Source: Streptomyces sp. NP160 (GTDB lineage: Bacteria; Actinomycetota; Actinomycetes; Actinomycetales; Quadrisphaeraceae). Taken from it: a stretch of 64,000 nt of DNA. Location: the NCBI RefSeq assembly GCF_006335115.1, contig NZ_VDMJ01000030.1, positions 1 to 64,000 on the forward strand. Reading direction: 5' to 3'. Under the pieces are notes generated by a model. That model did not search any database, was not told the origin of the DNA, and was given only the letters and a program-made list of their open reading frames with translations. Shown piece by piece: positions 30,361-50,272 of the stretch; position 1 is the stretch's first letter, and each line of letters begins with the position of its first letter. The translations under genes were made by a program, and so were the position numbers.

Positions 30361-31296
30361 TCAGGCGCAGGCCAGTGATCCTGCGGGGGCAGCGAGTCGT
30401 GCAGCGCCGATGGCTCCTGCGAGGTCTCCCAGCGAGGTGACCCTGACATCAGGCGCGTCCGCGGACGTCATGGCTGCCAGCTGCCCTTGCAGAGCAGCCC
30501 CGAAGTGCGCGAAGCACTGCGCTGCACTCCCAGCCAGCACCACCACGTCGGGCCGGTGCTGGGTCGACAGCTCCACAAGACCATCACCGACTCGTCGGCC
30601 GTACTCGGTCAACACCTCCAGGGCCACCGCCTCACCTTCGGTGGCTGCGGCGTTGAGTTCGCGGAGATCGGTCGAACCGCGAGCCTGCTCGGCCAGGTTC
30701 TGCAGGGAGGCGCGGGAAGCGGTCTGCTCCAGGCAGGTCTGCCGGCCGCAGTAGCACAGGGCGGGTGCACCGGGAACGGTGAGGTGGCCTGCTTCGGGGT
30801 GTAGCCCGTCCCCGCCGCGGAAGGGACGTCCCTGTCGTACGACCGCTACGCCGACACCGGTGCCCAACGTGAGCACGAGCAGGGCTGATGCTCCGCGTCC
30901 GGCGCCCTTCCAGTGCTCACCGATGGCTGCGGCGGCCGCGTCGTTGTCGATGACGACGGGTACCCCGAAGGTGTTGGTGAGCGAGCCGACCACGTCGAGA
31001 CCGGTCAGCCCGGGAAGGGTGTCGGGGTTGCGGATGACGCCGCCGGCATCGACCGGCCCGCTGGCTCCGATGCCGATCGCCCCCAGCTCACCGAGCTCGA
31101 GCCCCGCTCGCTCGACGACGTGCTCCACCCAGCCAGCCACAGCGTCCAGCGCGAGCGAGGGCGAGGCCGGGGTGGAGTCGATGTGCGAGGCGACGACCTC
31201 ATCGCCCCGCACCACGACCGTCCGGGACGCCGTGCCTCCGATGTCGATCCCGACGACGGGGACCCCCGTGGTGGGAGGCAGGAGCGGACCGGTCAT
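30361..31296 (-). CDS. ROK-family sugar kinase
   Basis: 311 residues. The ATP-binding motif GIDIGGTASR is at the N-terminus. VIDNDAAAAAIGEH, LTLGTGVGVAVV and EAGHLTV lead to the zinc motif CYCGRQTCLE, which defines ROK (glucokinase/N-acylhexosamine kinase) proteins. The catalytic Asp is in the IDNDA segment. It lacks a helix-turn-helix, so it is an enzyme and not a repressor. Its ATG overlaps the SIS gene stop (TGATG); a GTG one codon earlier is an alternative. It is the last gene of the operon. It probably phosphorylates the sugar moiety handled by the SIS protein; substrate unknown. Confidence 0.88.
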   Translation of the reverse strand: MTGPLLPPTTGVPVVGIDIGGTASRTVVVRGDEVVASHIDSTPASPSLALDAVAGWVEHVVERAGLELGELGAIGIGASGPVDAGGVIRNPDTLPGLTGLDVVGSLTNTFGVPVVIDNDAAAAAIGEHWKGAGRGASALLVLTLGTGVGVAVVRQGRPFRGGDGLHPEAGHLTVPGAPALCYCGRQTCLEQTASRASLQNLAEQARGSTDLRELNAAATEGEAVALEVLTEYGRRVGDGLVELSTQHRPDVVVLAGSAAQCFAHFGAALQGQLAAMTSADAPDVRVTSLGDLAGAIGAARLAAPAGSLACA

Positions 31297-32333
31297 CACA
31301 GTGACGTGGTGATCTTGCTGCCGAAGGCGAAGGCCCCCGGCACCACGCCGTTCTCCCGAGCGAGGTCGACGGCGAGCAGCTGAGCGATGACGGCTCCCGT
31401 TGCCAGTCCCTCCAGGCTGGTGCGGCTCGGCGCGGCGATGGTCTCCGCCCCCGCGACCTGCAGGTCGCCGATGAGGTTCACCGAGGCTCCAGTGGCCAGC
31501 ACGTCGCGCGCGAGGGTAGCCAGGGGACCATCACTCTCGATGGAGTGGGCGCCGTAGAGGTAGACGGTCAGGCCGGGGCCGGCAAGCTCCAGCGGACCGT
31601 GGCGGAACTGCCCCCCGACGAAGCCTTCGATGGCGAGCTTGGTCGACTCCTTGGTGATGAGACCGGCGAACTGGGAGGTGGCGGCTGCGTCCTCCCAGCC
31701 GACAGCGGCCAGGCGCGGCCGGTCGTGCGACAGCGCGCCCTTGGCCAGTGCCGTGGAGACCCCCACCTGGATGAGGTCTTCCACGGTGTCGGCGATGCGG
31801 ACCGCGTCCTCGCCCACGGCCGCGATGTCCTCACCGACCAACGCTGCGGTCAGCTGGGCGTGCACGACCAAGGTGTTCAGGTAGCTCTTGGTGCTGACGG
31901 TGGCCTCCGGACCGCAGTGCAGCAGCCCCACGCCGTGGGCGGCTTGCGCCAGGGGGCTGTCGGGGTCAGCGGTGATGCCGATGAGTCCCCCAGCACGGGC
32001 GTGACCATCCTGCATGCGGCTGATCAGTTCGACGACCTCGCCGCTGGCGCCGGACTGCGAGGTCGCGATGACCAGGGTGTCGGAAGTGATCAGCTCGGGG
32101 GTGTCCAGGAGCTGTCCGGTGTCCACCGCCCACACGGCCCGTCCCCGGGCAGCCAGCGAGCGCCAGGTGGGGACCGAGGCGAAGTGAGAGCTGCCCATGC
32201 CGGTCAGGACGATGCGCTGCCAGGGCTTGCGCGCCAGCGTCGAGAGCTCGGTGGGGACCGGCTGGGAGGCCAGCGCGCGCAGGGCCTCGGGCTGGGCGAG
32301 GACGTCCTGCTCGAAGGGGGTGGTGGTGATCAC
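31296..32333 (-). CDS. SIS-domain sugar isomerase / deglycase
   Basis: 345 residues with two SIS domains, like the isomerase half of GlmS and like AgaS and the deglycase FrlB. Typical features are GMGSSHFAS, ATSQSGASGEVVELI and the C-terminal KESTKLAIEGFVGGQFRHGP, close to the conserved E-F-HGP segment in which the catalytic Glu and His sit. It lacks a glutaminase domain. It overlaps the GMC oxidoreductase stop by 4 nt (ATGA) and the ROK kinase start. The combination points to isomerisation or cleavage of an amino-sugar phosphate or a fructosamine phosphate; which one cannot be read here. Confidence 0.85.
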   Translation of the reverse strand: MITTTPFEQDVLAQPEALRALASQPVPTELSTLARKPWQRIVLTGMGSSHFASVPTWRSLAARGRAVWAVDTGQLLDTPELITSDTLVIATSQSGASGEVVELISRMQDGHARAGGLIGITADPDSPLAQAAHGVGLLHCGPEATVSTKSYLNTLVVHAQLTAALVGEDIAAVGEDAVRIADTVEDLIQVGVSTALAKGALSHDRPRLAAVGWEDAAATSQFAGLITKESTKLAIEGFVGGQFRHGPLELAGPGLTVYLYGAHSIESDGPLATLARDVLATGASVNLIGDLQVAGAETIAAPSRTSLEGLATGAVIAQLLAVDLARENGVVPGAFAFGSKITTSL

Positions 32334-37567: not shown

Positions 37568-38581
37568 TCAGGTGGTACCCGAGGTGCGCCGCGTCAGCAG
37601 CACATTGACCAGCACCGCCAGGACGATGAGGCCGCCGCGCACGACGTCCTGGAAGTAGGAGTTCACACCGAGGATCACCAGGCCGTTGCCGATGACCGTG
37701 ATGAACAGGACCCCCAGCAGCGTGCCCAGCATCGAGCCACGACCGCCGGACAGGGAGGTGCCGCCGATCACGATGGCCGCGATGACCGAGAACTCCAGGC
37801 CCTGCGCCGCGCCGCTGTTTCCCGATGCCAAGCGCGCGGCGAAGACGATGCCCAGCAGGGCCGCCATGACGCCGCTGAGAGCGAAGATCACCACGCGGAC
37901 GCGCAGCACGCGGACTCCGGTGAGCATGGCCGCCCGGGCGTTGCCGCCGACGGCGAAGACGGACCTGCCGAAGGTGGTCCGCCGCGCCACGAAGGCGAAG
38001 ACGGCGAAGAGCACGAACATGAGGATTGCCGCGGTGGGCACGGGGCCGACCCGGCCGCCCAGGAGGTCCAGCAGCGAGCTGTCGCCGACGGGGACCGGCA
38101 GTGCGTTGGTCATGAACTGCGCAGCACCGCGCATGGCGCTCCAGAGCCCCAGCGTGACGATGAAGGACGGCACCCCGTAGCGCCCGCGCAGCCAGCCGGC
38201 ACCTGCTCCCACCAGCGCCCCGCCGACCAGGGTGGCGAGGATCGCCGGCACGAGCCCCCACCCCCAGGACGTGTCGAGCTTGGCGAGGATCACGCTCCAG
38301 AAGGCGACGGCAGGCCCCACGCTGAGGTCGATCTCCCCGGCGACGACGACGAGCGTGCCCGCCCAGGCGACGATGCCCACGAGGGCTGCGTCTCCCAGGA
38401 TCGCCCAGAGGTTGGCCTCGCTGGCGAAGCGCGGGTTCGCCACCGACAGCGCCACCACGAGCACCACGAGGGCGACCGCGAGCCCGGCCTCGTTCAGCTG
38501 CTGGGTGGTCAGGGCGAGCCGGCCGCGCCGCTGCGCGGGCGCCTCGGGGGCCCCGGTCGGGGCGGTGCTGACGGTGCTCAT
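37568..38581 (-). CDS. Ribose-type sugar ABC transporter permease (CUT2)
   Basis: 337 residues, about ten membrane segments. Family signatures are VVVAGEIDLSVGP (the RbsC-like GxxDLSVG), GVPSFIVTLG, FGRSVFAVGGNARAA and IGGTSLSGGRGSMLGTLLG. The ATG at 38581 overlaps the ATPase stop by 4 nt (ATGA). It is the last gene of the importer operon, order binding protein - ATPase - permease. The family imports pentoses, galactose, inositol or similar monosaccharides. The substrate is not evident; neighbouring dehydrogenase and DUF5107 genes may act on it. Confidence 0.92.
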   Translation of the reverse strand: MSTVSTAPTGAPEAPAQRRGRLALTTQQLNEAGLAVALVVLVVALSVANPRFASEANLWAILGDAALVGIVAWAGTLVVVAGEIDLSVGPAVAFWSVILAKLDTSWGWGLVPAILATLVGGALVGAGAGWLRGRYGVPSFIVTLGLWSAMRGAAQFMTNALPVPVGDSSLLDLLGGRVGPVPTAAILMFVLFAVFAFVARRTTFGRSVFAVGGNARAAMLTGVRVLRVRVVIFALSGVMAALLGIVFAARLASGNSGAAQGLEFSVIAAIVIGGTSLSGGRGSMLGTLLGVLFITVIGNGLVILGVNSYFQDVVRGGLIVLAVLVNVLLTRRTSGTT

Positions 38582-40095
38582 CGCACTTCCTCTCGGTCCT
38601 GCTCGGCGATGGCCGCGAGCAGCAGCTTGTCCGTCTCGATGTGCGGCGCGAGGTGCTCGGCGACGATGCGCCCCCCGGCCAGGACGAGCGCCCTGTCGCA
38701 CACCAGGTTGATCTCGTCCATCTCGCTGGAGACGAACACCACGGCACGGCCCTGGGCCGCGAGGTCGCGCAGCAGGGCGTAGATCTGCGCCTTGGCCTGG
38801 ACATCGACGCCGCGCGTCGGTTCGTCCAGGAGCAGCACGCGGCTGCCAGCGTGCAGCCAGCGGCCGATCACGACCTTCTGCTGGTTCCCGCCGCTCAGCG
38901 TCCCGATGGGCGTCGCCGGGCTGTGGGTCTTCACCGACATGCTGTCGATGCCCCGACGGGCAGCGGCCGCCAGACGGCGCCCGTTGATGACGCCGCCGGC
39001 GGCCACCGGCTTCCAATCGGTGATGACGAGGTTCTCGTCGACGCCGAGGTCGGGGATGATCCCGTCGTTCTTGCGGTCCTCCGGCGTCAGCCCGATCCCA
39101 AGGCGAAGTGCGGCGGCCAGCCCGCGCCCGTCCACCCGGACGCCGTCGACCTCAACGCGGCCGGCGTCGGGCTTGCGGAGGCCGGCGATGACCTGCAGCA
39201 GCTCGGTGCGGCCCGAGCCCAGGACCCCCGCGAGGCCGAGGACCTCGCCCTCGCGCACGTCGAAGGACACGTCGTGGACCTTCGGCTCGACGGCCAGGTC
39301 GCGCACGCTCACCAGCACCCGGCCCGCGGACGTAGAGGCCTGCACCGGGAAGGTGCTGGCCTGCGCCTCCCCGAGCATCATCTGCACGACGTCGGCGTTG
39401 GAGGTGCCGGCGAGGTCGACGGTGTCGATGACCCGCCCGTCGCGCATGACCGTCGCCGTGTCGGCGACCCGGCGGATCTCGGAGACGCGGTGGCTGACGT
39501 AGACCACCGCCACGCCTGCCGCGCGGATCGTCTGGACGGTGGCGAGGACCCTCTCGACCTCCGCGGCGGCCAGGGAGCTGGTCGGCTCGTCGAGGATGAG
39601 CAGCCCCGGGTCATCGGCGACGGCCCGCGCGATCTCCACCATCTGCTGGTCGGCGATGCTGAGCTGGCCGACCGGGCGCCGAGGGTCGAGGTCCACGCCG
39701 ATGCGGTGCAGCGCCTCCTCGGCGCCGGCGAGCATCCGCCGGCGGTCGATGCCGGCGCGCCCGTGGGGCCAGGAACCCATGAAGAGGTTCTCCGCCACCG
39801 TCATGTCGGGGATGACCGTGAGCTCCTGGAAGACCGTCCGCACGCCCAGCGCGTGGGCTCCCTGCACGGTCGCCCGCTCCAGCACCGTGCCGGACAGGGT
39901 GACGGTGCCGGTGTCGGGCGCTTCGGCGCCGGCGAGCATGCGGATCACCGTCGACTTGCCGGCGCCGTTCTTGCCGAGCAGCGCCCGGACCTCGCCACGG
40001 CGGATCTGCAGGTCGACCCCGGAGAGGGCCTGCACGCCGGAGTAGCGCTTGCTGACCCCCTCCAGGACGGCGATCGGCTCACCGGCGCCGATCAC
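38578..40095 (-). CDS. Sugar ABC transporter ATP-binding protein (CUT2, RbsA/XylG-like)
   Basis: 505 residues with two ABC ATPase domains. The first has Walker A GKNGAGKST, Q-loop and LSIADQQMVEIARA signature, with Walker B LLILDEPTSS. The second has the degenerate Walker A GVLGSGRTE, typical of this family, signature LSGGNQQKV and Walker B LLLDEPTRGVD. The GTG start overlaps the binding-protein stop (GTGA). It energises uptake through the permease next to it. Complete and undamaged. Confidence 0.93.
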   Translation of the reverse strand: MIGAGEPIAVLEGVSKRYSGVQALSGVDLQIRRGEVRALLGKNGAGKSTVIRMLAGAEAPDTGTVTLSGTVLERATVQGAHALGVRTVFQELTVIPDMTVAENLFMGSWPHGRAGIDRRRMLAGAEEALHRIGVDLDPRRPVGQLSIADQQMVEIARAVADDPGLLILDEPTSSLAAAEVERVLATVQTIRAAGVAVVYVSHRVSEIRRVADTATVMRDGRVIDTVDLAGTSNADVVQMMLGEAQASTFPVQASTSAGRVLVSVRDLAVEPKVHDVSFDVREGEVLGLAGVLGSGRTELLQVIAGLRKPDAGRVEVDGVRVDGRGLAAALRLGIGLTPEDRKNDGIIPDLGVDENLVITDWKPVAAGGVINGRRLAAAARRGIDSMSVKTHSPATPIGTLSGGNQQKVVIGRWLHAGSRVLLLDEPTRGVDVQAKAQIYALLRDLAAQGRAVVFVSSEMDEINLVCDRALVLAGGRIVAEHLAPHIETDKLLLAAIAEQDREEVR

Positions 40096-41111
40096 GGGAT
40101 GCCGTCGGCGTGGGTGGTCAGCCACTGCTCCGCGGAGGCGGCGTCCGGGTAGATGTCGACGGCCACCGGCACGACCGTGCCGGCCGGCTCCGCGCCGCTG
40201 CCGATGGCCTTGATGGCGGCGTCGACGGCGGTCTTGCCCATCGTCTGGCCGCTGATGTCGACCTGAGCCTTGAGGACGCTGTTGTCCTTCAGCGCATTGG
40301 CGATGTCTGTGGTCATGTCTCCGCCGAAGACCACCGTCTTGCCGGTCATGCCGGCGTTCTGGACGGCCTTGACGGCGCCGATGGTGGCGTCCCCGTACTC
40401 GCCGAAGAAGGCGTCGACGTCGGGCTGGGCGGTGAGGATGTTCTGGGCCGCGGTCAGGGACGCCGAGGCGTCGCCGCCCTTCTGGTTGGCGACGATGCTG
40501 TAGCCGGGCACCTTCTCCTTGAGCGCCTTCTCGAAACCCTCGCGGCGCTGGACGCAGACCTCGACGAACTCGCAGTTCACCACGCCGATCTTGGGGGCGG
40601 TGATCCCGGCCTTCACGAAGTAGTCGGCGGCGGCGCTGCCCAGCTTGTACCCGAACTCCACCGGGTCACCGAGCGCGTAGGCGGAGACGTACTTGGACAG
40701 GTCGGGGTCCGCGATGCAGGTGTTGTAGCAGACCACAGGGATGCCGGCGTTTGACGCGGCCTTGATCGCGGGCACGGAAGCAGTGCCCGACGCGGCCGAC
40801 AGCAGGATCGCGTCGACCTGCTGTGCCACGAGGTTGTTCATGAAGGTCGACTCCTTGCTGGCGTCGTCCTGGGCGTTGGTCTCCACGATGGAGACGGTGC
40901 GGCCCTGCTCCTTCGCTCCGTCGTCGATGCCCTTCTTGACACCGCCGTAGAAGCCCTGGGTGTCGAGGTAGATGACACCGAGGCGCAGATCGCCTCCGCT
41001 GGAGGCGGCGCCGGAGGCTCCGGCGTCGCCACCTCCGCAGGCGGCCAGGACTGGCACGAGGGCCGCGAGGGAGACCGCAGCCGCGGCGAAGCGGCTTCTT
41101 GCAGACAGCAC
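40092..41111 (-). CDS. Sugar ABC transporter substrate-binding lipoprotein (RbsB-like)
   Basis: 339 residues. Start: GTG with GGAGG 5 nt upstream; the further open frame is not signal-like. The N-terminal signal peptide ends in LAACGGG (lipobox), so it is a surface lipoprotein. It has the Peripla_BP_4 fold with GVIYLDTQGFYGGVKKGIDD, AQQVDAILLSAAS and FGGDMTTDIANALKD. Family members bind one monosaccharide or autoinducer-like molecule. It heads the ABC operon, and the AraC-type regulator encoded 185 bp upstream on the same strand is the probable controller. Confidence 0.92.
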   Translation of the reverse strand: MLSARSRFAAAAVSLAALVPVLAACGGGDAGASGAASSGGDLRLGVIYLDTQGFYGGVKKGIDDGAKEQGRTVSIVETNAQDDASKESTFMNNLVAQQVDAILLSAASGTASVPAIKAASNAGIPVVCYNTCIADPDLSKYVSAYALGDPVEFGYKLGSAAADYFVKAGITAPKIGVVNCEFVEVCVQRREGFEKALKEKVPGYSIVANQKGGDASASLTAAQNILTAQPDVDAFFGEYGDATIGAVKAVQNAGMTGKTVVFGGDMTTDIANALKDNSVLKAQVDISGQTMGKTAVDAAIKAIGSGAEPAGTVVPVAVDIYPDAASAEQWLTTHADGIP

Positions 41112-41296: not shown

Positions 41297-42166
41297 TCAG
41301 CCCTTGGCTCGGTCGCGGTACTCGGAGGCGGTGGTGCCGTGCACCTTGCGGAACTGGCGCGAGAAGTAGAACGGGTCCTCGTAGCCCACAGCTCGTGCCA
41401 CTGCTGCCACGGACAGGTCAGTGGTGTCGAGGAGCTCGCGGCTGCGGTTCATCCTCAGGCGGGTCTGGTACTCCCTAGGGCCGCATCCCGCGGCCTTGCG
41501 GAAGAGGGTGGAGAAGTGTGAGACCGACAGGCCCACCCGTGCGGCCATGCGGCTGACGCTCTCGTCGCTCGCGTAGGCGTCCTGCAGGTGCGCGATCGCC
41601 ACCTGGACCGGGTCCACCCGTCCAGCGGCCCGCGCGTGCCGCCCGGCGGCGAGTCGAGCGAGGAGGTGCCACGCCGCACCTGAGGCGAGCTGGAGGCTCG
41701 AGGGGGAGTCGTCGCGCTCCAGGGCGCTCAGGGCCTCGTTGACGAGGGCGACAGCGCGACTGACGTCGCTGACGACCAGCACCGCGCCGTCGGCACCCAC
41801 GTCCGCAGCAGACAGCAGGTCTGGCACGGCGGTGCCTGTCAGGTGCAACCACCAGACCGTCCAGGGGTCATGCGTGTCGGCGCCGTATCGGTGTGGTGTC
41901 CCCGCGGGCAGGACCAGGGCGTGGCCCGGTTGCAGCACCACCTCTCCTCCAGGCAGCTCGCACCACCCGGTGCCTGAGGTGCAGACGATGATGATGGCCT
42001 GCTCGCTGCCTCGCGGTCGTACGCGCAGGTGTGAGGCGGCCCGCGGGAAGTAGCCGGCGTCGCTCACCAGTAGCTGGGCCGTGAGGGGGTCGGTCTTGGC
42101 CGCCCGCAGCCGAGGCCGGGGGAGGACGCTGATGCGCTCGCCGGGGAAGCCCGACTCCAGTGTCAC
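41297..42166 (-). CDS. AraC-family transcriptional regulator
   Basis: 289 residues. The N-terminal cupin sensor domain (AraC_binding, with SGTGWCELPGGEVVLQPGHAL and PAGTPHRYG) is joined to two C-terminal helix-turn-helix motifs. The second carries the family signature AVARAVGYEDPFYFSRQFRK. It starts with GTG. It is divergent from the DUF5107 operon (88 bp) and upstream of the sugar ABC operon, so it could control both. It would sense the imported sugar. Confidence 0.9.
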   Translation of the reverse strand: MTLESGFPGERISVLPRPRLRAAKTDPLTAQLLVSDAGYFPRAASHLRVRPRGSEQAIIIVCTSGTGWCELPGGEVVLQPGHALVLPAGTPHRYGADTHDPWTVWWLHLTGTAVPDLLSAADVGADGAVLVVSDVSRAVALVNEALSALERDDSPSSLQLASGAAWHLLARLAAGRHARAAGRVDPVQVAIAHLQDAYASDESVSRMAARVGLSVSHFSTLFRKAAGCGPREYQTRLRMNRSRELLDTTDLSVAAVARAVGYEDPFYFSRQFRKVHGTTASEYRDRAKG

Positions 42167-42241
42167 GTCGAAAATACTAGAACCGATGATTCATCCAGGT
42201 CACCAGTCGATGCGCCCATGTCGCACAGGCGGCGCTGTTCC

Positions 42242-42247
42242 TAGCGT
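42242..42247 (+). promoter_or_regulatory. -10 box of leaderless DUF5107 gene
   Basis: TAGCGT ends 7 nt before the ATG at 42255, with no ribosome-binding site between. Same arrangement as at the lacI-like gene. Confidence 0.45.
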
Positions 42248-42254
42248 CATCGTC

Positions 42255-45200
42255 ATGTCGACGACGACTGGTGACCCCTCGCAGCTGGTGCTGCCCCCTG
42301 TCCCTGACCACCTGCGCGACCGGGCGGTGGCGGTGTGGCGAGAGCCGCTCGAGATCGACACCTACGAACCCCTGGACCCCGACCGGTACCCCATGTTCCT
42401 GGAGTCGCGGGTCTACCAGGGCTCCTCCGGGAGGGTGTACCCGCTCCCCTTCCACGACCGCATCAGCTCGGAGAAGCGCTCCCGCCCCTGGGACGCGATC
42501 CACATCGAGAACGAGTGGATCCGGCTCGTGGTGCTCCCCGAGCTCGGCGGGCGCATCCACATCGGGTACGACAAGGCCAGCGGCTACGACTTCTTCTACC
42601 GCAACAACGTCATCAAGCCCGCCCTCGTCGGCCTCGCAGGCCCCTGGATCTCTGGCGGGGTGGAGTTCAACTGGCCCCAGCACCACCGTCCGGGCACCTT
42701 CATGCCCGTCGACGTCGAGGTGGAGGAGCGCGAGGACGGCTCCGTGACGGTGTGGTGCTCTGACCACGAGCCCTTCCACCGCATGAAGGGCATGCACGGC
42801 GTGACGGTGCACCCCGACCGCGCTGTCGTCCAGGTCGACGTGCGCCTGCACAACCGCACCGAGGACACCAGGACGTTCCTGTGGTGGGCCAATGTCGCCG
42901 CCCGCGTCCACGACGACTTCCAGTCGTTCTTCCCGCCGGACGTGTCGGTGGTCGCCGACCACGCCAAGCGCGCCACGACCGGCTTCCCCCGCGCGACTAC
43001 GCCCTACTACGGCATCGACTACCCCTCCCGGGTCAGCCAGGACGCGCCGGACGCGGACCGGCTGGACTGGTACCGCAACATCCCTGTGCCCACCTCGTAC
43101 ATGGTGGTCGGCAGCCGCGGCGACTTCTTCGGCGGCTACGACCACGCGGCGCAGGCGGGCTTCGTCCACTGGGCCGATCACCACGTCTCTCCGGGCAAGA
43201 AGCAGTGGACGTGGGGCAACGCGCCCTTCGGCTGGGCGTGGGACGAGCAGCTGACCGACGGCGACGGCCCCTACGTGGAGCTGATGGCTGGTGTCTACAC
43301 CGACAACCAGCCGGACTTCTCCTTCCTCGCGCCTGGCGAGACCAAGACCTTCACGCAGTACTGGTACCCGGTGCAGAAGGTCGGCGTGGTGCACCAGGCG
43401 ACGCCGGAGGCGGCCGTCTCGCTCGTCGTCGAGGGCGCTGACCAGGGCGGTACCCCTGTAGCTCGCTTCGGCGTGGCGGTGACCAGCACCCGCCCGGGCT
43501 TGCGGCTGCGGCTCGAGCGCAGCTCCGGCGAGGAGCTCTGGGAGGAGGACGCCGACCTAGCACCCGACCGCCCGTTCGAGGGCTCGGTGTCCTTGCCCGC
43601 CGGGGCCGATGCGGACCAGCTCGTCCTACGGGTGCTGGAGGGCGACCGTGAGCTGCTGCGCCTGGACCCGTCCTCGGCGGCCGGAGCACAGGAGCCGGTG
43701 GAACCGGCCACCGAGCCCCCGTCGCCGGAGGACGTGGACACCGTGGAGGAGCTCTACCTGACCGGCCTGCACCTGGCCCAGTACCGCCACGCAACCCGCT
43801 CGCCCGAGCCCTACTGGCGCGAGGCGCTGCGGCGCGACCCCGGTGACTCCCGCTCGGCGACTGCGCTCGCCACTCGCGCCTACGAGCGTGGTGAGCTCGA
43901 GCAGGCCGAGGAGCTGCTGAGGACCGCGCTCACCCGCCTCGTGGCGCGCAACCCGAACCCCTACGACGGTGAGCCGCTGTACCGCCTCGGGCTGGTGCTG
44001 GTGCGCCAGGGGAGGGAGACGGAGGCCTACGACGCCTTCGCCAAGTCCGCCTGGAACGCCGCCTGGGCCGCCCCGGCTGCGGTGGCGATGGCGAGGTCGC
44101 TGGCGCGCCGACAGAAGTACGAGCCCGCGGTGGTCCTGCTCGACCAGGCACTGGCCAAGGAGGGTGGGCACCTCGCTGCGCGCGACCTCCAGGTGGCGCT
44201 GCTGCGGCGCCTCGGCCAGGACCAGCGGGCCCAGCAGCTGCTGGCCAGCACGCTGGAGTTGGACCCGCTCGACTGGTGGGCGCGCCACCTCGATGGGCAG
44301 CCACTGCACTGCGACGCCCGCACCTGCCTGGACCTCGTGGTCGAGTGCACCGGCAGCGGACTCCTCGACGACGCCCTGCAGCTGGTCGACGCCGCGGTCG
44401 AGCGCAGCCACCACGAGCGCTGGCGAGGGGTGGAGCCGCTGGCGCACTACTACCGGGCCGACGTCCTCACCCGCCTCGGTCGCCACGACGACGCCGCGGC
44501 GGCGCGCGCCGACGCCCGAGCCGCCGACCCGACCTACTGCTTTCCGCACACCCTCGACGATGCCGCCGTGCTGCGCCTGGCGCTGGAGGCCGAGCCCGCG
44601 GACCCCCGCGCCGCCGCGCTGCTCGGGCACTGGTCCTACGACCGGCGCCGCTACGACGACGCCATCGCCCTGTGGCGGCGCGCTGTGGAGGGAGACCCCG
44701 GTGACGCCGTCTGCTGGCGCAACCTCGGGGTGGCCGCCCACAACGTCCAGCACGACGCCGACCTAGCAGTGGGGTGCTTCGAGCGTGCCGTGGCCGCGGC
44801 TCCGGACGACGCGCGCCTGCGCTACGAGGCCGACCAGCTCGCCAAGCGCACAGACCACCCGCCGGCGCAGCGCCTCAAGGCGCTGGAGGACCGCCTCGAC
44901 CTCGTGGCCGAACGCGACGACCTGAGCCTGGAGCACGCCGACCTGCTGCTGGCCGTCGGGCGCACCACAGAGGCCCGCGAATCGCTGCTGGCCCGCCACT
45001 TCCAGCCCTGGGAGGGCGGCGAGGGCCAGGTGCTCGGCACCTGGGAGCGCACGCACCTGCACCTCGCGCGCACGGCACTCGCTGAGGGCCGCCCGCAGGA
45101 GGCGCAGCAGATGCTGGAGGCGGCCCTGGAGCCGCCGCGCCACCTGGGTGAGGGCCCGCACCTGCTCGCCAACCGCTCCGAGCTGCACCTGGCGCTCGGT

Positions 45201-45653
45201 GACGCCCTCGCGGCGCAGGGGCAGCCGGAGCAGGCGGCCGCCGCGTGGCGCACCGCTGCCGAGGCCCGCGGCGACTTCCAGGCGATGGCGCCCCAGCCCT
45301 ACAGCGACAAGACCTGGTGGTCGGCGCAGGCGTGGCGCCGTCTGGGTCACCCGGAGCGCGCTGAGGAGCTGCTGGCCGGCTTGGAGGCCTACGCCGATGA
45401 GCTGCAGCGCACCCCTGCCGTCGTCGACTACTTCGCCACGTCGCTGCCGACGCTGCTGCTCTTCGGCGACGACCTCGGCCGTCGGCGTCAGCAGTCGGTG
45501 GACCTGCTGCGGGCGCAGGCTGCCGCAGCACGAGGCCACCGCGACCAGGCGGCCCGGCGCGCGCTGCGCATCCTGGACGCCGACCCCAACCACCAGGGCG
45601 CGCAGGACCTGCTTGCTCTGACCGCCACCCCGTCATCGGTCGAGGAGGACTGA
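42255..45653 (+). CDS. DUF5107 and tetratricopeptide repeat protein
   Basis: 1132 residues. Residues about 20-400 form a DUF5107-type beta-rich domain (ESRVYQGSSGRVYPLPF, VLPELGGRIHIGYDK and GGVEFNWPQHHRP), which looks like a galactose-mutarotase or glycoside-processing fold. After a linker (about 400-490), the remaining 640 residues are TPR-like helical repeats (for example GHWSYDRRRYDDAIALWRRA). There is no signal peptide, so it is cytoplasmic. It is the first gene of an operon with a zinc dehydrogenase and a DUF4380-like protein, beside a sugar importer. Function is unknown; a role in sugar binding or hydrolysis is inferred. Confidence 0.82.
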   Translation: MSTTTGDPSQLVLPPVPDHLRDRAVAVWREPLEIDTYEPLDPDRYPMFLESRVYQGSSGRVYPLPFHDRISSEKRSRPWDAIHIENEWIRLVVLPELGGRIHIGYDKASGYDFFYRNNVIKPALVGLAGPWISGGVEFNWPQHHRPGTFMPVDVEVEEREDGSVTVWCSDHEPFHRMKGMHGVTVHPDRAVVQVDVRLHNRTEDTRTFLWWANVAARVHDDFQSFFPPDVSVVADHAKRATTGFPRATTPYYGIDYPSRVSQDAPDADRLDWYRNIPVPTSYMVVGSRGDFFGGYDHAAQAGFVHWADHHVSPGKKQWTWGNAPFGWAWDEQLTDGDGPYVELMAGVYTDNQPDFSFLAPGETKTFTQYWYPVQKVGVVHQATPEAAVSLVVEGADQGGTPVARFGVAVTSTRPGLRLRLERSSGEELWEEDADLAPDRPFEGSVSLPAGADADQLVLRVLEGDRELLRLDPSSAAGAQEPVEPATEPPSPEDVDTVEELYLTGLHLAQYRHATRSPEPYWREALRRDPGDSRSATALATRAYERGELEQAEELLRTALTRLVARNPNPYDGEPLYRLGLVLVRQGRETEAYDAFAKSAWNAAWAAPAAVAMARSLARRQKYEPAVVLLDQALAKEGGHLAARDLQVALLRRLGQDQRAQQLLASTLELDPLDWWARHLDGQPLHCDARTCLDLVVECTGSGLLDDALQLVDAAVERSHHERWRGVEPLAHYYRADVLTRLGRHDDAAAARADARAADPTYCFPHTLDDAAVLRLALEAEPADPRAAALLGHWSYDRRRYDDAIALWRRAVEGDPGDAVCWRNLGVAAHNVQHDADLAVGCFERAVAAAPDDARLRYEADQLAKRTDHPPAQRLKALEDRLDLVAERDDLSLEHADLLLAVGRTTEARESLLARHFQPWEGGEGQVLGTWERTHLHLARTALAEGRPQEAQQMLEAALEPPRHLGEGPHLLANRSELHLALGDALAAQGQPEQAAAAWRTAAEARGDFQAMAPQPYSDKTWWSAQAWRRLGHPERAEELLAGLEAYADELQRTPAVVDYFATSLPTLLLFGDDLGRRRQQSVDLLRAQAAAARGHRDQAARRALRILDADPNHQGAQDLLALTATPSSVEED

Positions 45654-45654
45654 G

Positions 45655-46755
45655 ATGAGCGCCCAGACGAAGACTGAGACGGGCACGACCAGCACCATGC
45701 AGGGCGTCTTGCTCCCCGGAGACTCCACCGCGCAGCTGCGCCCACACCCGGTGCCCCGGCCGAGGCCCGGCCAGGTGCTGCTGCGCGTGGGCGCCTCCGG
45801 CATCTGCGGTAGCGACATCGGCTACATCTACCGCGGGTACAAGAGCCACAAGGGCCTCGACGGAGCGCCGGCCTACCACGGCGTCATCGCAGGTCACGAG
45901 CCCAGCGGCACCGTCCTCGCCGTCGGCGAGGGCGTCACCCGCGTGGCCGAGGGCGACCGCGTGATCGTCTACCACATCGTCGGGTGCGGGGTGTGCCGCA
46001 ACTGCCGGGCGGGCTACTTCATCAGCTGCAGCGACGAGCAGCGCCGCGAGTCGTACGGCTGGCAGCGCGACGGCGGGCACGCGCCATACCTGCTCGCTGA
46101 GGAGTCCACCTGCATCCCGCTGCCCGACGAGCTGTCGCTGGTCGATGGGAGCCTCATCGCCTGCGGCTTCGGCACCGCCTACGAGGGGATGCTGCGCACC
46201 GGCATCGGCGGCGCTGACGAGCTCCTGGTGGTGGGACTGGGCCCGGTGGGCCTGGCGGCCGCCATGATCGCGCGCTGCCTCGGCGTGCGCCGCGTCATCG
46301 GCGTGGAGCGGACTCCGGAGCGCATCGCTTTCGTAGAGGGCACGGGCCTGGTCGACGACGTCGTCCTCGCGGACGGCTCCGCGGTCGAGAACGTGCTCGC
46401 GCTGACCGGCGGTCAGGGGTGCTCGGTGGCCGTCGACGCCTCGGGCAGCGCTCCGGGCCGCTCGGTGGCGCTCGAGGGCGTGGCCGAGTGGGGGCGGGTC
46501 TCGCTGCTCGGCGAAGGGGGCCGCCTGGAGACGGAGGTCTCCGACACGCTGTTGCACAAGCACGTGACTGTCCACGCCTCCTGGGTGACGTCCCTGCAGG
46601 GCATGGAGGACCTCAGCCTTCTGCTCGCCCGCAGCGGCGTGCACCCGGAGGTGGTGGTCAGCCACCGGTTCGGGTTGGACCAGGCCGACGAGGCCTACCG
46701 CCTGGCGGCTTCGGGGGCGGCCGGCAAGGTCGTCATCGTTCCCGAGGTCTCGTGA
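45655..46755 (+). CDS. Zinc-dependent alcohol/polyol dehydrogenase (MDR family)
   Basis: 366 residues. The catalytic zinc site is given by CGSDIGY (Cys) and GHEPSG (His, Glu), the structural zinc by GCGVCRNCRAGYFISC (four Cys), and the NAD site by GLGPVGLAAA. This is the sorbitol/threonine dehydrogenase type. It starts 1 nt after the DUF5107 stop and overlaps the next gene by 4 nt. It probably oxidises a hydroxyl of the imported sugar, perhaps to a keto-sugar, but specificity is not readable. The DUF5107 and DUF4380-like neighbours recall gene sets in which keto-sugar glycosides are processed. Confidence 0.9.
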   Translation: MSAQTKTETGTTSTMQGVLLPGDSTAQLRPHPVPRPRPGQVLLRVGASGICGSDIGYIYRGYKSHKGLDGAPAYHGVIAGHEPSGTVLAVGEGVTRVAEGDRVIVYHIVGCGVCRNCRAGYFISCSDEQRRESYGWQRDGGHAPYLLAEESTCIPLPDELSLVDGSLIACGFGTAYEGMLRTGIGGADELLVVGLGPVGLAAAMIARCLGVRRVIGVERTPERIAFVEGTGLVDDVVLADGSAVENVLALTGGQGCSVAVDASGSAPGRSVALEGVAEWGRVSLLGEGGRLETEVSDTLLHKHVTVHASWVTSLQGMEDLSLLLARSGVHPEVVVSHRFGLDQADEAYRLAASGAAGKVVIVPEVS

Positions 46756-47747
46756 CCAGCGGTCACCAGGACGCCGTCTGCCGGCTGGAGCGCCAGCTCC
46801 TCGACGACCTCGAGGTGCTGCACGTCGACACCGGACCGCTCCAGGTGGCGTTCCTGCCGCAGGTCGGTGGCCGGCTCATCTCGCTGCGGGTCGGTGGTGT
46901 CGAGGTGGTCTGGCGCAATCCGACGTGGCTGGGCGGGGACCTGGCCCCGGTGCGCCCGCACGCCTCCTGGCCTGAGCCCGACGGCACCATGGGCAGCTGG
47001 GTCAACGTCGGCGGCGGCAAGACGTGGCCGGCGCCGCAGGGGTGGTCCGGGCCGGAGGAGTGGGCCGGCCCGCCTGACGCGGTCCTCGATGCCGGGGCGT
47101 ACGCGCTCGAGGTGGACGAGCGTCCGAGCGGTGCTGTCGCGGTGGACCTCACGAGCGAGACCGACCCCGTCACGGGACTGCAGTGCCGTCGGCGCTTCAC
47201 CTTCACCCCCGGCGCAGCGCACTTCCACCAGACGGCCAGCCTCACCAACCGCAGCGACCGTCCCGTGCGGTGGGCGGTGTGGGAGGTGGTCCAGGTGGAC
47301 ACACGGCCGACGGCCGCGGGAGCCCGCGGCACCTTCTGGGTGCCGACCTCGGGCGAACCGGAGGTCCATGAGCTGATGGCGGTCGCCGGGCGGCCCCGCA
47401 CCGAGCCCCTGCGCGGGGGCGTCGTCGTCCCCGCTCAAGACGCCGTCGCCAAGCTGGGCTTTCCGACGGCGAGCGGGGAGGTCCGTTGGGACCGGCCTGA
47501 TGGTGCGTGGCTGTCGCTCACCACGGAGGTGGCCGACCCAGCGGTCCACCCCGACGGAGGCTGCCCCGTGGAACTGTGGCTGCAGCACCCCCTCCCGGAG
47601 CCTCTCGCCGAGCTCAGCGGGCTCCACCCCGACGCCCACCTCGTCGAGATGGAGGTGCTCGGCCCGCTGGTCGACCTCGGACCGGGTGAGACCACCACAC
47701 TGCACATCAGCTGGCAGGTCGGGCAGCGCCGCAGCGAAGGGGAGTAG
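46752..47747 (+). CDS. DUF4380-like / aldose-epimerase-fold protein
   Basis: 331 residues of beta-sandwich character. LPQVGGRLISLRVGGVEVVWRNP near the N-terminus is the sequence hallmark of DUF4380 and related galactose-mutarotase-like proteins. RRRFTFTPGAAHFHQTASLTNRSDRPVRWAVWEVVQ resembles the central part. There is no signal peptide. The GTG overlaps the dehydrogenase stop (GTGA). Function unknown; it could be an epimerase, a lyase or a carbohydrate-binding protein for the same substrate as its two operon partners. Confidence 0.75.
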   Translation: MTSGHQDAVCRLERQLLDDLEVLHVDTGPLQVAFLPQVGGRLISLRVGGVEVVWRNPTWLGGDLAPVRPHASWPEPDGTMGSWVNVGGGKTWPAPQGWSGPEEWAGPPDAVLDAGAYALEVDERPSGAVAVDLTSETDPVTGLQCRRRFTFTPGAAHFHQTASLTNRSDRPVRWAVWEVVQVDTRPTAAGARGTFWVPTSGEPEVHELMAVAGRPRTEPLRGGVVVPAQDAVAKLGFPTASGEVRWDRPDGAWLSLTTEVADPAVHPDGGCPVELWLQHPLPEPLAELSGLHPDAHLVEMEVLGPLVDLGPGETTTLHISWQVGQRRSEGE

Positions 47748-47975: not shown

Positions 47976-48809
47976 TCAGCGGCTCCTGCCGAGCGCATCG
48001 ACATCGCGCATCTCGTCAGCGCTCAACTCGAAGTCGAAGATGTCGAAGTTGCTCGCGATCCGCTCGCGCTGCGAAGACTTCGGGATGACGACGACGCCGT
48101 GCTGGACGTGCCAGCGGATGATCACCTGCTGGACCGTGACGCCGTGCCGGCGGGCAGCCGCGGTCAGCGACAGGGCAGCGAGGTCAGTGCTCTTGAAGGG
48201 ACTCCATCCTTCAAGCGCCACTCCCCGCTCCGCGTGGGCCGCGACCAGGGACGCATCGAAGAGCCCAGGCCCCCACTTGATCTGGTTGACCGCTGGTGTG
48301 ACGCCAGTGGCAGCGGTGAGCTCGTCGATCTGGGCGATGCTGTAGTTGCTGACGCCGATAGCCCGCACGAGTCCGTCGGTCCGCGCCTTGATGAACTCCT
48401 CCCAGACGTCGGGACGCGCCTGCCCGCCGGGGGGCCAGTGGATGAGCCACAGGTCGAGATGCTCCAGGCCGGCCGCGCGCAGGCTCTCCTCGAGCGTCTT
48501 CCGCTCCCGGCCGGCGTTGCCCTGCGGCATCTTCGTGGTGACGAAGACGTCCTCCCGTGCCAGGCCGCTGTCACGGACGGCAGCGCCGACCTGGTCCTCG
48601 TTGGCGTAGTAGGTGGCGGTGTCCACGTGCCGGTAGCCGATGTCGAGGGCGTCGCGGACGGCTCGGTAGGCCTGGCCGCCGCTCGACTCCCAGGTCCCCA
48701 GCCCGATCAGGGGCATGTCGAGCTGCGTCCCGTCGGTGCCGCTGATGGAGACCACCGGTTGGGACATCGTCGGCTGCCCGTCGTTGCGGTCGTCAGTGCT
48801 GCTGGTCAT
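47976..48809 (-). CDS. Aldo/keto reductase
   Basis: 277 residues from the ATG at 48809, which overlaps the SnoaL gene by 17 bp; an ATG at 48767 is an alternative. The AKR TIM barrel shows GLGTWESSGGQAYRAVRDAL, the catalytic DTATYYANE (Asp, Tyr), HWPPGG, IGVSNYS and the NADPH-binding IPKSSQRERIASN. The family reduces aldehydes and ketones with NADPH. It is in an apparent minus-strand run with a SnoaL-like protein, a second AKR and an MFS exporter under a divergent TetR regulator, a layout common in detoxification gene sets. Confidence 0.9.
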   Translation of the reverse strand: MTSSTDDRNDGQPTMSQPVVSISGTDGTQLDMPLIGLGTWESSGGQAYRAVRDALDIGYRHVDTATYYANEDQVGAAVRDSGLAREDVFVTTKMPQGNAGRERKTLEESLRAAGLEHLDLWLIHWPPGGQARPDVWEEFIKARTDGLVRAIGVSNYSIAQIDELTAATGVTPAVNQIKWGPGLFDASLVAAHAERGVALEGWSPFKSTDLAALSLTAAARRHGVTVQQVIIRWHVQHGVVVIPKSSQRERIASNFDIFDFELSADEMRDVDALGRSR

Positions 48810-49254
48810 CGTCGTCCGCCCTAGTCGTCTCATCTGTCGTGTTGGTGGCCTCGCCCGAGAGCTGTCGCTGGAGGTCATCTGCGTCGAAGACCGCCCAGAA
48901 CCGCTCGATGAGCCCGCCGTCGTCGAGCAGGTACAGGTTCATCCCCGACCAGCTGATCTCTCGTCCCGACAGCGACTGTCCGCTGCCGGTCCAGCGAACA
49001 GCGGTCGCCGGCCCCGCAGCGAAGACCTCGTCCTCGCGGATCCCGTCGAACCGTCCCCACGTGGGGAGGAAGTCCGTGAGCATCTGCTGGAACGCCGCAC
49101 GTCCGCGCAGGGCGGGGGCACCCGCCGGGTCCTCGCCGACGGCGTCCGGCGCGAAGCACGCCGCCCACGCCGCGGGGTCGTTGGCGCGCAGAGCCGCGAA
49201 GTACCCCTCCACCGACGGTGGTGTCTTCACCGGCTCTCGTCTCGTGCTGCTCAT
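48793..49254 (-). CDS. SnoaL/NTF2-like protein
   Basis: 153 residues with the cone-shaped NTF2 fold pattern: VEGYFAALRANDPAAWAACF at the start, then FAPDAVGEDPAGAP, and WSGMNLYLLDDGGLIERFWAVFDA at the end. Such proteins are polyketide cyclases, isomerases or ligand-binding proteins. The C-terminal tail is acidic (TRADDDDQQH). It lies 37 bp after the second aldo/keto reductase gene and overlaps the first. Function unknown; probably acts on the same small molecule as the reductases. Confidence 0.78.
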   Translation of the reverse strand: MSSTRREPVKTPPSVEGYFAALRANDPAAWAACFAPDAVGEDPAGAPALRGRAAFQQMLTDFLPTWGRFDGIREDEVFAAGPATAVRWTGSGQSLSGREISWSGMNLYLLDDGGLIERFWAVFDADDLQRQLSGEATNTTDETTRADDDDQQH

Positions 49255-49291: not shown

Positions 49292-50272
49292 TCAGGCCGC
49301 TGACTCAGACGCGCGCTCGGCGGCCGTCCGGGTCACCTCGTCTGAGAAGGCGTCCAGCGCAGCCACCTCGTCCACGGCCAGGTCCACGGTCGCCGAGGCG
49401 AGCAGGTCCGCGAGCTGCTCGGGGTTCCTGGCGCTGGCGATCGGCGCGACGACGGTGGGCTTGCTCTGGAGCCAGGCCAGCGCGACCGTCGACAGCGCCA
49501 CGCCGTGCGCCTGCGCGGTGCGGTCGAGCTGTTCCACCACGCGCAGGCCCTCGTCGGTGAAGTACTTCGCGGTGAACGACTCGCGGTCGCTCCCCGCGAG
49601 GTCCTCGCGGGTGCGATACTTGCCGGTGAGGAAACCGCTGGCGAGGGAGAAGTACGGCACGACGCCGAGCTGGTGCTGTGCGGCCACCGGTGCCAGCTGC
49701 CCCTCGAACGGCTCCCGGCTGACCAGGTTGTAGTGCGGCTGGAGCGCCACCGGCGCGGCGTAGCCGCTGCCCTGCGCGATGGACACCCACTGCTGGACCC
49801 GCTCGGCGCTGTAGTTCGAGAGGCCCACGTATCGGACCTTGCCGGTGTTCACCAGCCCGTCAAAGGCCGCGACCGTCTCGGCGAGGTCGACTTCGGGGTC
49901 GTCGAAGTGGGCGTAGTACAGGTCGATGTGGTCGGTCTGCAGCCGGCGCAGCGACGCCTCGGCAGCGGCCCGGACGTTGGTGGCTGACAGGCCGCGGAAC
50001 TGCGGATGCTGGCTGACCTTGGTGCCGATGACGACGTCGTCGCGCCGGCCACGGGACTTGAGCCAGGAGCCGATGACCGTCTCAGACTCCCCGCCGGAGT
50101 GGCCTGGCGCCCAGGCGGAGTACCCGTCGGCGGTGTCGATGAAGTCGCCGCCGCCGGCGACGAAGGCGTCCAGGACCTGGTGGGAGGTCGCCTCGTCGCT
50201 GGTCCAGCCGAAGGTGTTACCGCCCAGGGCGAGGGGGAAGACGTCCAGCGCGGATGTTCCGATCGTCGCCAT
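49292..50272 (-). CDS. Aldo/keto reductase (AKR, YhdN/general stress protein 69-like)
   Basis: 326 residues. LALGGNTFGWTSDEAT at the start, FIDTADGYSAW (catalytic Asp and Tyr), YYAHFDDPE, VGLSNYSAERV, and the C-terminal cofactor segment VVAPIASARNPEQLADLL. The ATG start gives a full-length family member. It lies 83 bp after the MFS gene on the same strand. It differs in subfamily from the AKR at 47976. A role in carbonyl detoxification is inferred from the cluster. Confidence 0.9.
   Translation of the reverse strand: MATIGTSALDVFPLALGGNTFGWTSDEATSHQVLDAFVAGGGDFIDTADGYSAWAPGHSGGESETVIGSWLKSRGRRDDVVIGTKVSQHPQFRGLSATNVRAAAEASLRRLQTDHIDLYYAHFDDPEVDLAETVAAFDGLVNTGKVRYVGLSNYSAERVQQWVSIAQGSGYAAPVALQPHYNLVSREPFEGQLAPVAAQHQLGVVPYFSLASGFLTGKYRTREDLAGSDRESFTAKYFTDEGLRVVEQLDRTAQAHGVALSTVALAWLQSKPTVVAPIASARNPEQLADLLASATVDLAVDEVAALDAFSDEVTRTAAERASESAA

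Follow-up and report, generated by a model that had tools for sequence, protein, structure and literature searches.

An actinobacterial counterpart of the Escherichia coli yph locus and its possible link to galactose-type sugars

Introduction

In Escherichia coli K-12 the yph genes are arranged in the order yphG-F-E-D-C-B; yphG is annotated solely by its domain of unknown function (DUF) and the remaining genes as putative. The accessible parts of the open-licence PubMed Central (PMC) literature offer no function for them; one table enters them as 'Sugar, putative ABC transporter' (PMC10305011), and the expression of yphEF is reported to be raised in glucose-transporter mutants (PMC6786474). 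A further point of reference are the pathways that proceed via 3-keto-glycosides; two characterised eliminases of this kind, AtOGE and PuCGE, adopt a TIM-barrel fold and depend on Mn (PMC10628242). The present study deals with a locus of Streptomyces sp. NP160 at positions 42255-47747 and in the adjoining region of a 64,000-nucleotide stretch of contig NZ_VDMJ01000030.1 (positions 1 to 64,000), which was analysed as a whole and is referred to as the window. It encodes a DUF5107 protein with tetratricopeptide repeats (TPR), a medium-chain dehydrogenase/reductase (MDR), a DUF4380 protein and a sugar importer of the CUT2 type. Our comparative analysis relates this locus to the yph genes and points to a galactose-type compound as its substrate, which would provide the yph operon and both DUF families with a concrete substrate class, galactose or small galactosides. 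DUF5107 proteins are strongly conserved and comprise about 1100 residues; the open-licence PMC literature, judged largely by titles, gives no function for them under this name, under PF17128 or under the structure codes, and no open-licence PMC paper on the function of DUF4380 (PF14315) was found.

Composition and conservation of the locus

The core of the locus consists of three tightly coupled genes on the plus strand (42255-47747). The first one (42255-45653) encodes the DUF5107-TPR protein of 1132 residues, in which the TPRs follow a PF17128 match at residues 60-373 (E 6.8e-55; 186.6 bits versus a cut-off of 24.4). A gap of 1 bp (45653/45655) separates it from the gene of a zinc MDR dehydrogenase of 366 residues with the Pfam domains ADH_N and ADH_zinc_N (45655-46755, +), whose stop is overlapped in a GTGA by the GTG start of the DUF4380 gene (46752-47747, +). 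The PF14315 match of the 331-residue DUF4380 protein is barely above the cut-off (30.2 versus 29.4 bits); its relatives in the loci L031 and L121 score 48.6 and 48.8, and those of L024 and L033 fall below the cut-off (26.8 and 25.2). The AraC-family regulator of 289 residues recognised in the family scan (41297-42166, -) is divergent from the DUF5107-TPR gene, and the intergenic region between them spans 42167-42254. The three CUT2 genes are located on the minus strand (41111-37568), each overlapping its neighbour by 4 bp, and encode a sugar-binding protein (40092-41111; Peripla_BP_4), a double ABC ATPase (38578-40095) and a permease (37568-38581; BPD_transp_2), so that all components of the importer are present in the window. 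The preliminary description of this DNA, which had reported the three coupled genes, the adjacent CUT2 importer and the nearby AraC regulator, is thus correct in its genes and frames. The GC content of the window is ~69-75% (4-kb steps).

G073, another genome from the window's order, has an identical layout including the divergent importer (locus L099). All of these genes recur in Frigoribacterium, Agromyces and Curtobacterium (L024, L031, L033), where the importer is placed inside the plus-strand operon. The gene set is thus not a chance grouping. Five of the window proteins are homologous over nearly their full length to E. coli YphG, YphC, YphF, YphE and YphD (36, 49.6, 52, 50 and 60% identity, respectively), the match to YphG extending over 1088 aa. 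Based on these sequence similarities we regard the locus as an actinobacterial yph locus, in which DUF4380 has replaced YphB and an AraC protein the regulator, and not as a new system. A tree of DUF5107 proteins places that of the window in a supported group of 25 rows; its 22 named rows are all from Actinomycetota and the other two represent G073 and G103, both from the window's order. YphG is located on a long branch in a distant clade of this quick tree, thus indicating that the yph-type combination is present in two far-apart lineages, either via repeated assembly or via many losses.

Genomic neighborhood of DUF5107

The genomic context was investigated for 80 DUF5107 loci, of which only 35 have five genes on both sides, so that all counts represent lower bounds. 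Neighboring genes were called with a codon-model caller and clustered by blastp, and the clusters were named from Pfam scans of representatives. Glycoside hydrolases (GHs) are conspicuous within five genes of DUF5107, i.e., GH2 in 23, GH35 in 14, a cellulase-like family in 12 and GH36 in 10 of the 80 loci, and at least one of these four recurring clusters is found in 48 of them. Their frequency drops sharply with distance, from 34 of 147 immediate neighbors to one of 82 genes at distance six and none of 149 at distance seven or more. Among the 83 unassigned plus-strand neighbors, 20 large ones were scanned for families. The scan retrieved Melibiase_2/GH27 domains in L030, L059 and one domain of the L037 protein, a melibiase-like protein in L077, and GLAA-B barrels in L037 and L083, which we take to be GH110-like. 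A GH59 protein adjoins DUF5107 in L027 and exhibits a weak Pfam match to 3-keto-disaccharide hydrolases in its lectin end; further neighbors are transporters, regulators and other proteins, including one without an assigned family in L048. The GH2 protein of L063, the only GH2 member compared in this way, matches the structure 8u01 with an E of 5.9e-272, and PMC12243196 assigns 8u01 to subfamily GH2_20, in which beta-galactosidase activity occurs. Judged by representatives, the GH families next to DUF5107 are largely galactosidases (GH35, GH36, GH27, GH59 and GH2_20-like).

The importer and the dehydrogenase have a different company. We searched 374 genomes of the class with cut-offs of E <= 1e-70 for the binding protein, E <= 1e-130 for the MDR and E <= 1e-150 for full-length DUF5107; at most 5 or 2 candidates per genome were scored in a first look. 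The binding protein and the MDR are present in exactly the same 11 genomes, a few kb apart on one contig. Full-length DUF5107 was also detected in 11 class genomes, two of which (G000, G103) belong to the importer-MDR set. In each of the nine remaining importer-MDR loci (L117-L125) the operon consists of binding protein, ATPase, permease, MDR and DUF4380, and all nine have genes for a short-chain dehydrogenase/reductase (SDR), a GntR/FCD regulator, a galactonate dehydratase, a 2-keto-3-deoxygalactonate (KDGal)-type kinase and a 2-keto-3-deoxy-6-phosphogalactonate (KDPGal)-type aldolase in adjoining or divergent position; an SMP-30 lactonase is found in eight of them. The galactonate dehydratase of L121 scores 577.5 bits with NF010624 (cut-off 311) and those of the other loci are 69-88% identical to it. 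This gene set corresponds to a galactose pathway of the De Ley-Doudoroff type, and L117-L125 apparently represent a galactose oxidation operon of actinobacteria. Titles and abstracts of the open-licence PMC literature on galactose oxidation in actinobacteria mention nothing on this operon.

Dehydratase-like genes also occur close to DUF5107. In L084, which originates from Anaerolineae (Chloroflexota), several acid-sugar-dehydratase-like genes accompany KDG-kinase-like and aldolase-like ones within six genes of DUF5107, with 30-33% identity to those of L121, and the locus possibly ties DUF5107 to an oxidative pathway for sugars in a second way. The same holds in part for L074, where dehydratase-like genes are likewise located within six genes; those of L084 and L074 share ~30-32% identity with the L121 galactonate dehydratase. 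Single dehydratase-like genes are present in L053 and L094.

A proposed galactose-type substrate

The linkage of DUF5107 with galactosidases and that of the importer-MDR-DUF4380 block with the galactonate pathway represent two independent contexts, from which we infer that the locus handles a galactose-type sugar or a small galactoside (rough probability 0.55). Several observations weigh against this assignment. Eight of the nine galactonate loci stem from a single family and are not nine independent cases. A tblastn search of the window retrieved no galactonate-pathway genes apart from an SDR-like match far off at ~2-2.8 kb, and in the genome of the window no galactonate dehydratase reaches the cut-off (best E 1.2e-24). 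The hydrolases near DUF5107 are not all galactosidases but include GH30 (L039, L051), GH95 (L086, L092), GH97 (L087), GH3 (L095) and the cellulase-like family. The MDR relatives with 54 and 58% identity are located in two polyol loci together with enzymes of the mannitol-dehydrogenase type and with FGGY kinases, one of which scores as xylulokinase-like, and another relative (53%) is found near an alpha-L-rhamnosidase. Finally, importer and MDR of G103 are separated from DUF5107 and adjoin arabinose/sulfoquinovose-isomerase-like and rhamnose-mutarotase-like genes, which suggests that they handle a different sugar.

The content of the G103 loci (L100, L107) comprises two arabinose/sulfoquinovose-isomerase-like proteins, an L-rhamnose-mutarotase-like protein, a protein that by eye resembles the major facilitator superfamily (MFS), and an iolC-type kinase.

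Two roles in galactose metabolism were rejected. The lack of a galactonate dehydratase above the cut-off argues against the galactonate route in the window genome, which holds galK and galT. A replacement of galactokinase by DUF5107 was rejected, because galK matches were obtained in 33 of the order's 34 genomes with DUF5107, 31 of them above the cut-off.

Predicted folds and conserved residues

The AlphaFold2 model of the DUF5107 protein, built on a 57-row alignment out of 72 rows, has a predicted local distance difference test score (pLDDT) of 91.8. Its best match in VIA-align is 5cd6 (Z 37.1, root-mean-square deviation [rmsd] 3.9, 555 residues aligned), and the comparison with GalM (Z 24.7, rmsd 2.6, 260 aligned) ranks above that with YphB (Z 21.4, rmsd 2.8, 245 aligned). 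The DUF4380 model (pLDDT 79.9; below 50 for residues 76-106) was built on four alignment rows and resembles GalM (Z 22.0, rmsd 2.9, 254 aligned) and YphB (Z 20.7, rmsd 3.4, 249 aligned). No match between DUF4380 and YphB was obtained by blastp at E 0.01; their profile alignment is global with four sequences (E 2.6e-4), but with 14 it covers only part of the proteins and is less significant (E 0.006). Both proteins are hence predicted to adopt the galactose-mutarotase fold, in agreement with the mutarotase-like folds proposed earlier, but a shared fold is no proof of function for either of them.

The conserved residues of DUF5107 were determined from 73 sequences, after nine of the 80 loci had been dropped because their proteins were too short. 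Invariant positions include R100, K121, E137, N139, H143, R145, D235, H236, K315, K316, E342, Q352 and D354 in the sandwich as well as H512, R822, E858, R887, D889, E920-G-G-E923-G and D1058 in the TPR part. The conservation of both parts extends across phyla, a pattern that looks more like that of an enzyme than of a scaffold. The invariant H143 and E342 are at most candidate counterparts of mutarotase residues, as hhalign yields no reliable alignment between the sandwich and aldose epimerases. The N-termini of DUF5107, YphG, MDR and DUF4380 do not reach the hydrophobicity of those of the two binding proteins (best mean over 15 residues 0.12-1.23 versus 1.83 and 2.35).

A subfamily of short DUF5107 forms is represented by L015 and L016; L017 was left out of this comparison, as its translation was in a wrong frame. 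Their open frames of ~660-690 aa, similar in length to 5cd6, retain core residues of the sandwich (R100, E137, N139, H144, N213, K316, Y340, E342 and Q352), whereas H143 and the EGGEG loop are missing.

The residue pattern of DUF4380 is different from that of the mutarotases. Thirteen canonical mutarotases from these loci, including YphB, share H83, H148, D187 and E253 (YphB numbering) at a level of at least 90%, which we take to be the catalytic residues. The 14 DUF4380 sequences retain invariant Lys, Asp and Glu residues and have no invariant histidine; to judge from this pattern, DUF4380 is not a canonical aldose mutarotase, and a non-mutarotase chemistry on a product of the MDR is possible.

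In the MDR tree, the window protein is part of a supported clade (97/98) together with YphC and its relatives, some of which originate from polyol loci. The candidate zinc ligands C51 and H81-E82, presumably catalytic, and C111, C114, C117 and C125, presumably structural, are invariant in 11 sequences. The similarity to YcjQ, a D-guloside 3-dehydrogenase, is restricted to 31% over 90 aa, and YcjQ represents a long branch of unsure placement. A role as YcjQ-like 3-dehydrogenase is thus not supported. A second MDR of the YphC clade is encoded in the same genome, G000, on C132 (L104, 9337-10389, -), near a mannitol-dehydrogenase-type enzyme.

A candidate operator of the AraC regulator

Relatives of the AraC regulator were found within five genes of DUF5107 in 40 of the 80 loci and within two genes in 36 of them. 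A candidate operator, TCATCCAG, is located at 42191-42198 between the AraC and DUF5107 genes. The corresponding pattern TC[ACG]TC[CT]A[GT] is present in 20 of the 27 divergent AraC/DUF5107 regions including the window (0.67 expected) and upstream of 15 of 556 control genes, figures that are somewhat inflated since the pattern was picked after viewing the sequences. It is absent from seven regions, among them that of the yph-type locus L031. A stricter nine-base form with at most one mismatch was detected in 10 of the 27 regions (1.1 expected) and for 34 of 550 controls; the best match of L099 to this form is weak. The recurrence of the motif upstream of DUF5107 suggests that AraC and DUF5107 form a regulator-target unit that seems to be used in differing gene sets.

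Proposed function and alternative explanations

The most plausible scenario is that the CUT2 transporter imports a galactose-type compound and that the AraC protein responds to this compound or to one of its products. The DUF5107-TPR protein would be an enzyme of the cytosol with the galactosyl unit as its target and with a pocket in the mutarotase-like sandwich that is closed by the TPR arch, and would most likely free or convert galactose for the Leloir pathway of the host, for which galK and galT are available. The MDR, which always accompanies the importer in the class sample, would oxidise a hydroxyl of the same sugar, and DUF4380 may process the cyclic substrate or product. Where relatives lack a full-length DUF5107 match, the importer-MDR-DUF4380 block is joined to the galactonate pathway instead. 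A more far-reaching version can be put forward only tentatively: DUF5107-TPR proteins including YphG may constitute a new galactoside-active family with an active site formed by the sandwich and the TPR superhelix with its EGGEG loop (920-924), and the histidine-free DUF4380 may act on an MDR-oxidised galactose unit, possibly as a lyase.

The first alternative, which we consider unlikely, is that DUF5107 cleaves nothing and converts or equilibrates free galactose as a TPR-bearing mutarotase or isomerase. The mutarotase fold is consistent with this role, and so is a C-terminal motif (E-x-M...PD...L.PGE-like) at the invariant E342 that by eye resembles that of YphB with E253. Transporters of the monosaccharide type are frequent within five genes, namely, a sugar MFS cluster whose representative matches XylE in 26 and CUT2-type ABC genes in nine of the 80 loci. 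However, ten loci already harbor an aldose epimerase in the same range, and the failure of hhalign to align the sandwich reliably with these enzymes also argues against it.

Still less probable is the oxidation of a glycoside followed by elimination that the preliminary description suggested; in this locus, the MDR would generate a keto-galactoside that is cleaved by DUF4380 and/or DUF5107 via beta-elimination or hydrolysis. The adjacency of MDR and DUF4380 in the window, in L099, L024, L031 and L033 and in all nine galactonate loci speaks for it, as do the residues of DUF4380, i.e., the invariant Lys, Asp and Glu without an invariant histidine; the SDR of the galactonate loci, a second dehydrogenase, could serve as reductase. 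On the other hand, a window-type MDR was assigned within five genes of DUF5107 only in L024, L031 and L033 and was not found in this range in 77 of the 80 loci (flanks often short); of the 35 loci with complete flanks, 32 lack it. A blastp search that covers fairly close relatives and often short flanks retrieved relatives of the Gfo/Idh dehydrogenase YcjS in two loci and of the TIM-barrel epimerase/eliminase YcjR in one, never closer than four genes. The MDR groups with YphC and not with YcjQ, and the eliminases AtOGE and PuCGE are TIM barrels. Moreover, the partner slot of the MDR is occupied in E. coli by the ordinary-looking YphB with its canonical mutarotase residues, which suggests that a step of the mutarotase kind is sufficient in that organism. 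The sequential oxidation and elimination is accordingly unsupported for DUF5107, given the missing MDR in most loci, and is conceivable for the pair of MDR and DUF4380, in view of the mutarotase histidines that the latter lacks. What stands of the earlier reading is that the genes belong together and that their relatives are found among sugar genes.

The least probable explanation, a polyol or deoxy-sugar operon with the MDR as polyol dehydrogenase and merely incidental galactose links, could invoke the two polyol loci and the rhamnose-mutarotase-like gene of G103, but the polyol-locus MDRs form a separate supported subclade and the importer-MDR-DUF4380 block is found beside galactonate genes in all nine loci without a full-length DUF5107 match.

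Further genes of the window

An aldo-keto reductase gene (47976-48878, -) is convergent with the DUF4380 gene, and a second open reading frame (49292-50272, -) was read as resembling an aldo-keto reductase; both are located outside the conserved set. At a distance of ~5 kb from the importer, positions 30361-32333 (-) encode a ROK-type protein with 30% identity to YphH and a protein that by eye is SIS-like. This pair is probably unrelated to the locus, since other genes intervene before the importer.

Comparison with known systems

The structure 5cd6 of BDI_1685 from Parabacteroides in the Protein Data Bank (PDB) combines a DUF5107 sandwich with TPRs as in the window protein, but it has only about half the length of the latter and its title names no function. 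The 3-keto-glycoside pathways of the YcjQRS and Agrobacterium/Microbacterium types likewise pair a dehydrogenase with sugar-processing enzymes, whereas the dehydrogenase of the window belongs to another subfamily than YcjQ/YcjS and its operon contains no TIM-barrel eliminase or epimerase. The De Ley-Doudoroff-type galactose operons (L117-L125) have the block of importer, MDR and DUF4380 in common with the window; unlike the latter, they comprise SDR, galactonate dehydratase, kinase and aldolase, together with the lactonase in eight of nine cases, and exhibit no full-length DUF5107 match. The yphGFEDCB genes of E. coli differ from the window in the presence of YphB instead of DUF4380 and of YphH instead of AraC, and in the importer, which in the window is located on the opposite strand, but both loci share the DUF5107-TPR protein, the MDR, the CUT2 importer (36-60% identity) and a partner with mutarotase fold next to the MDR.

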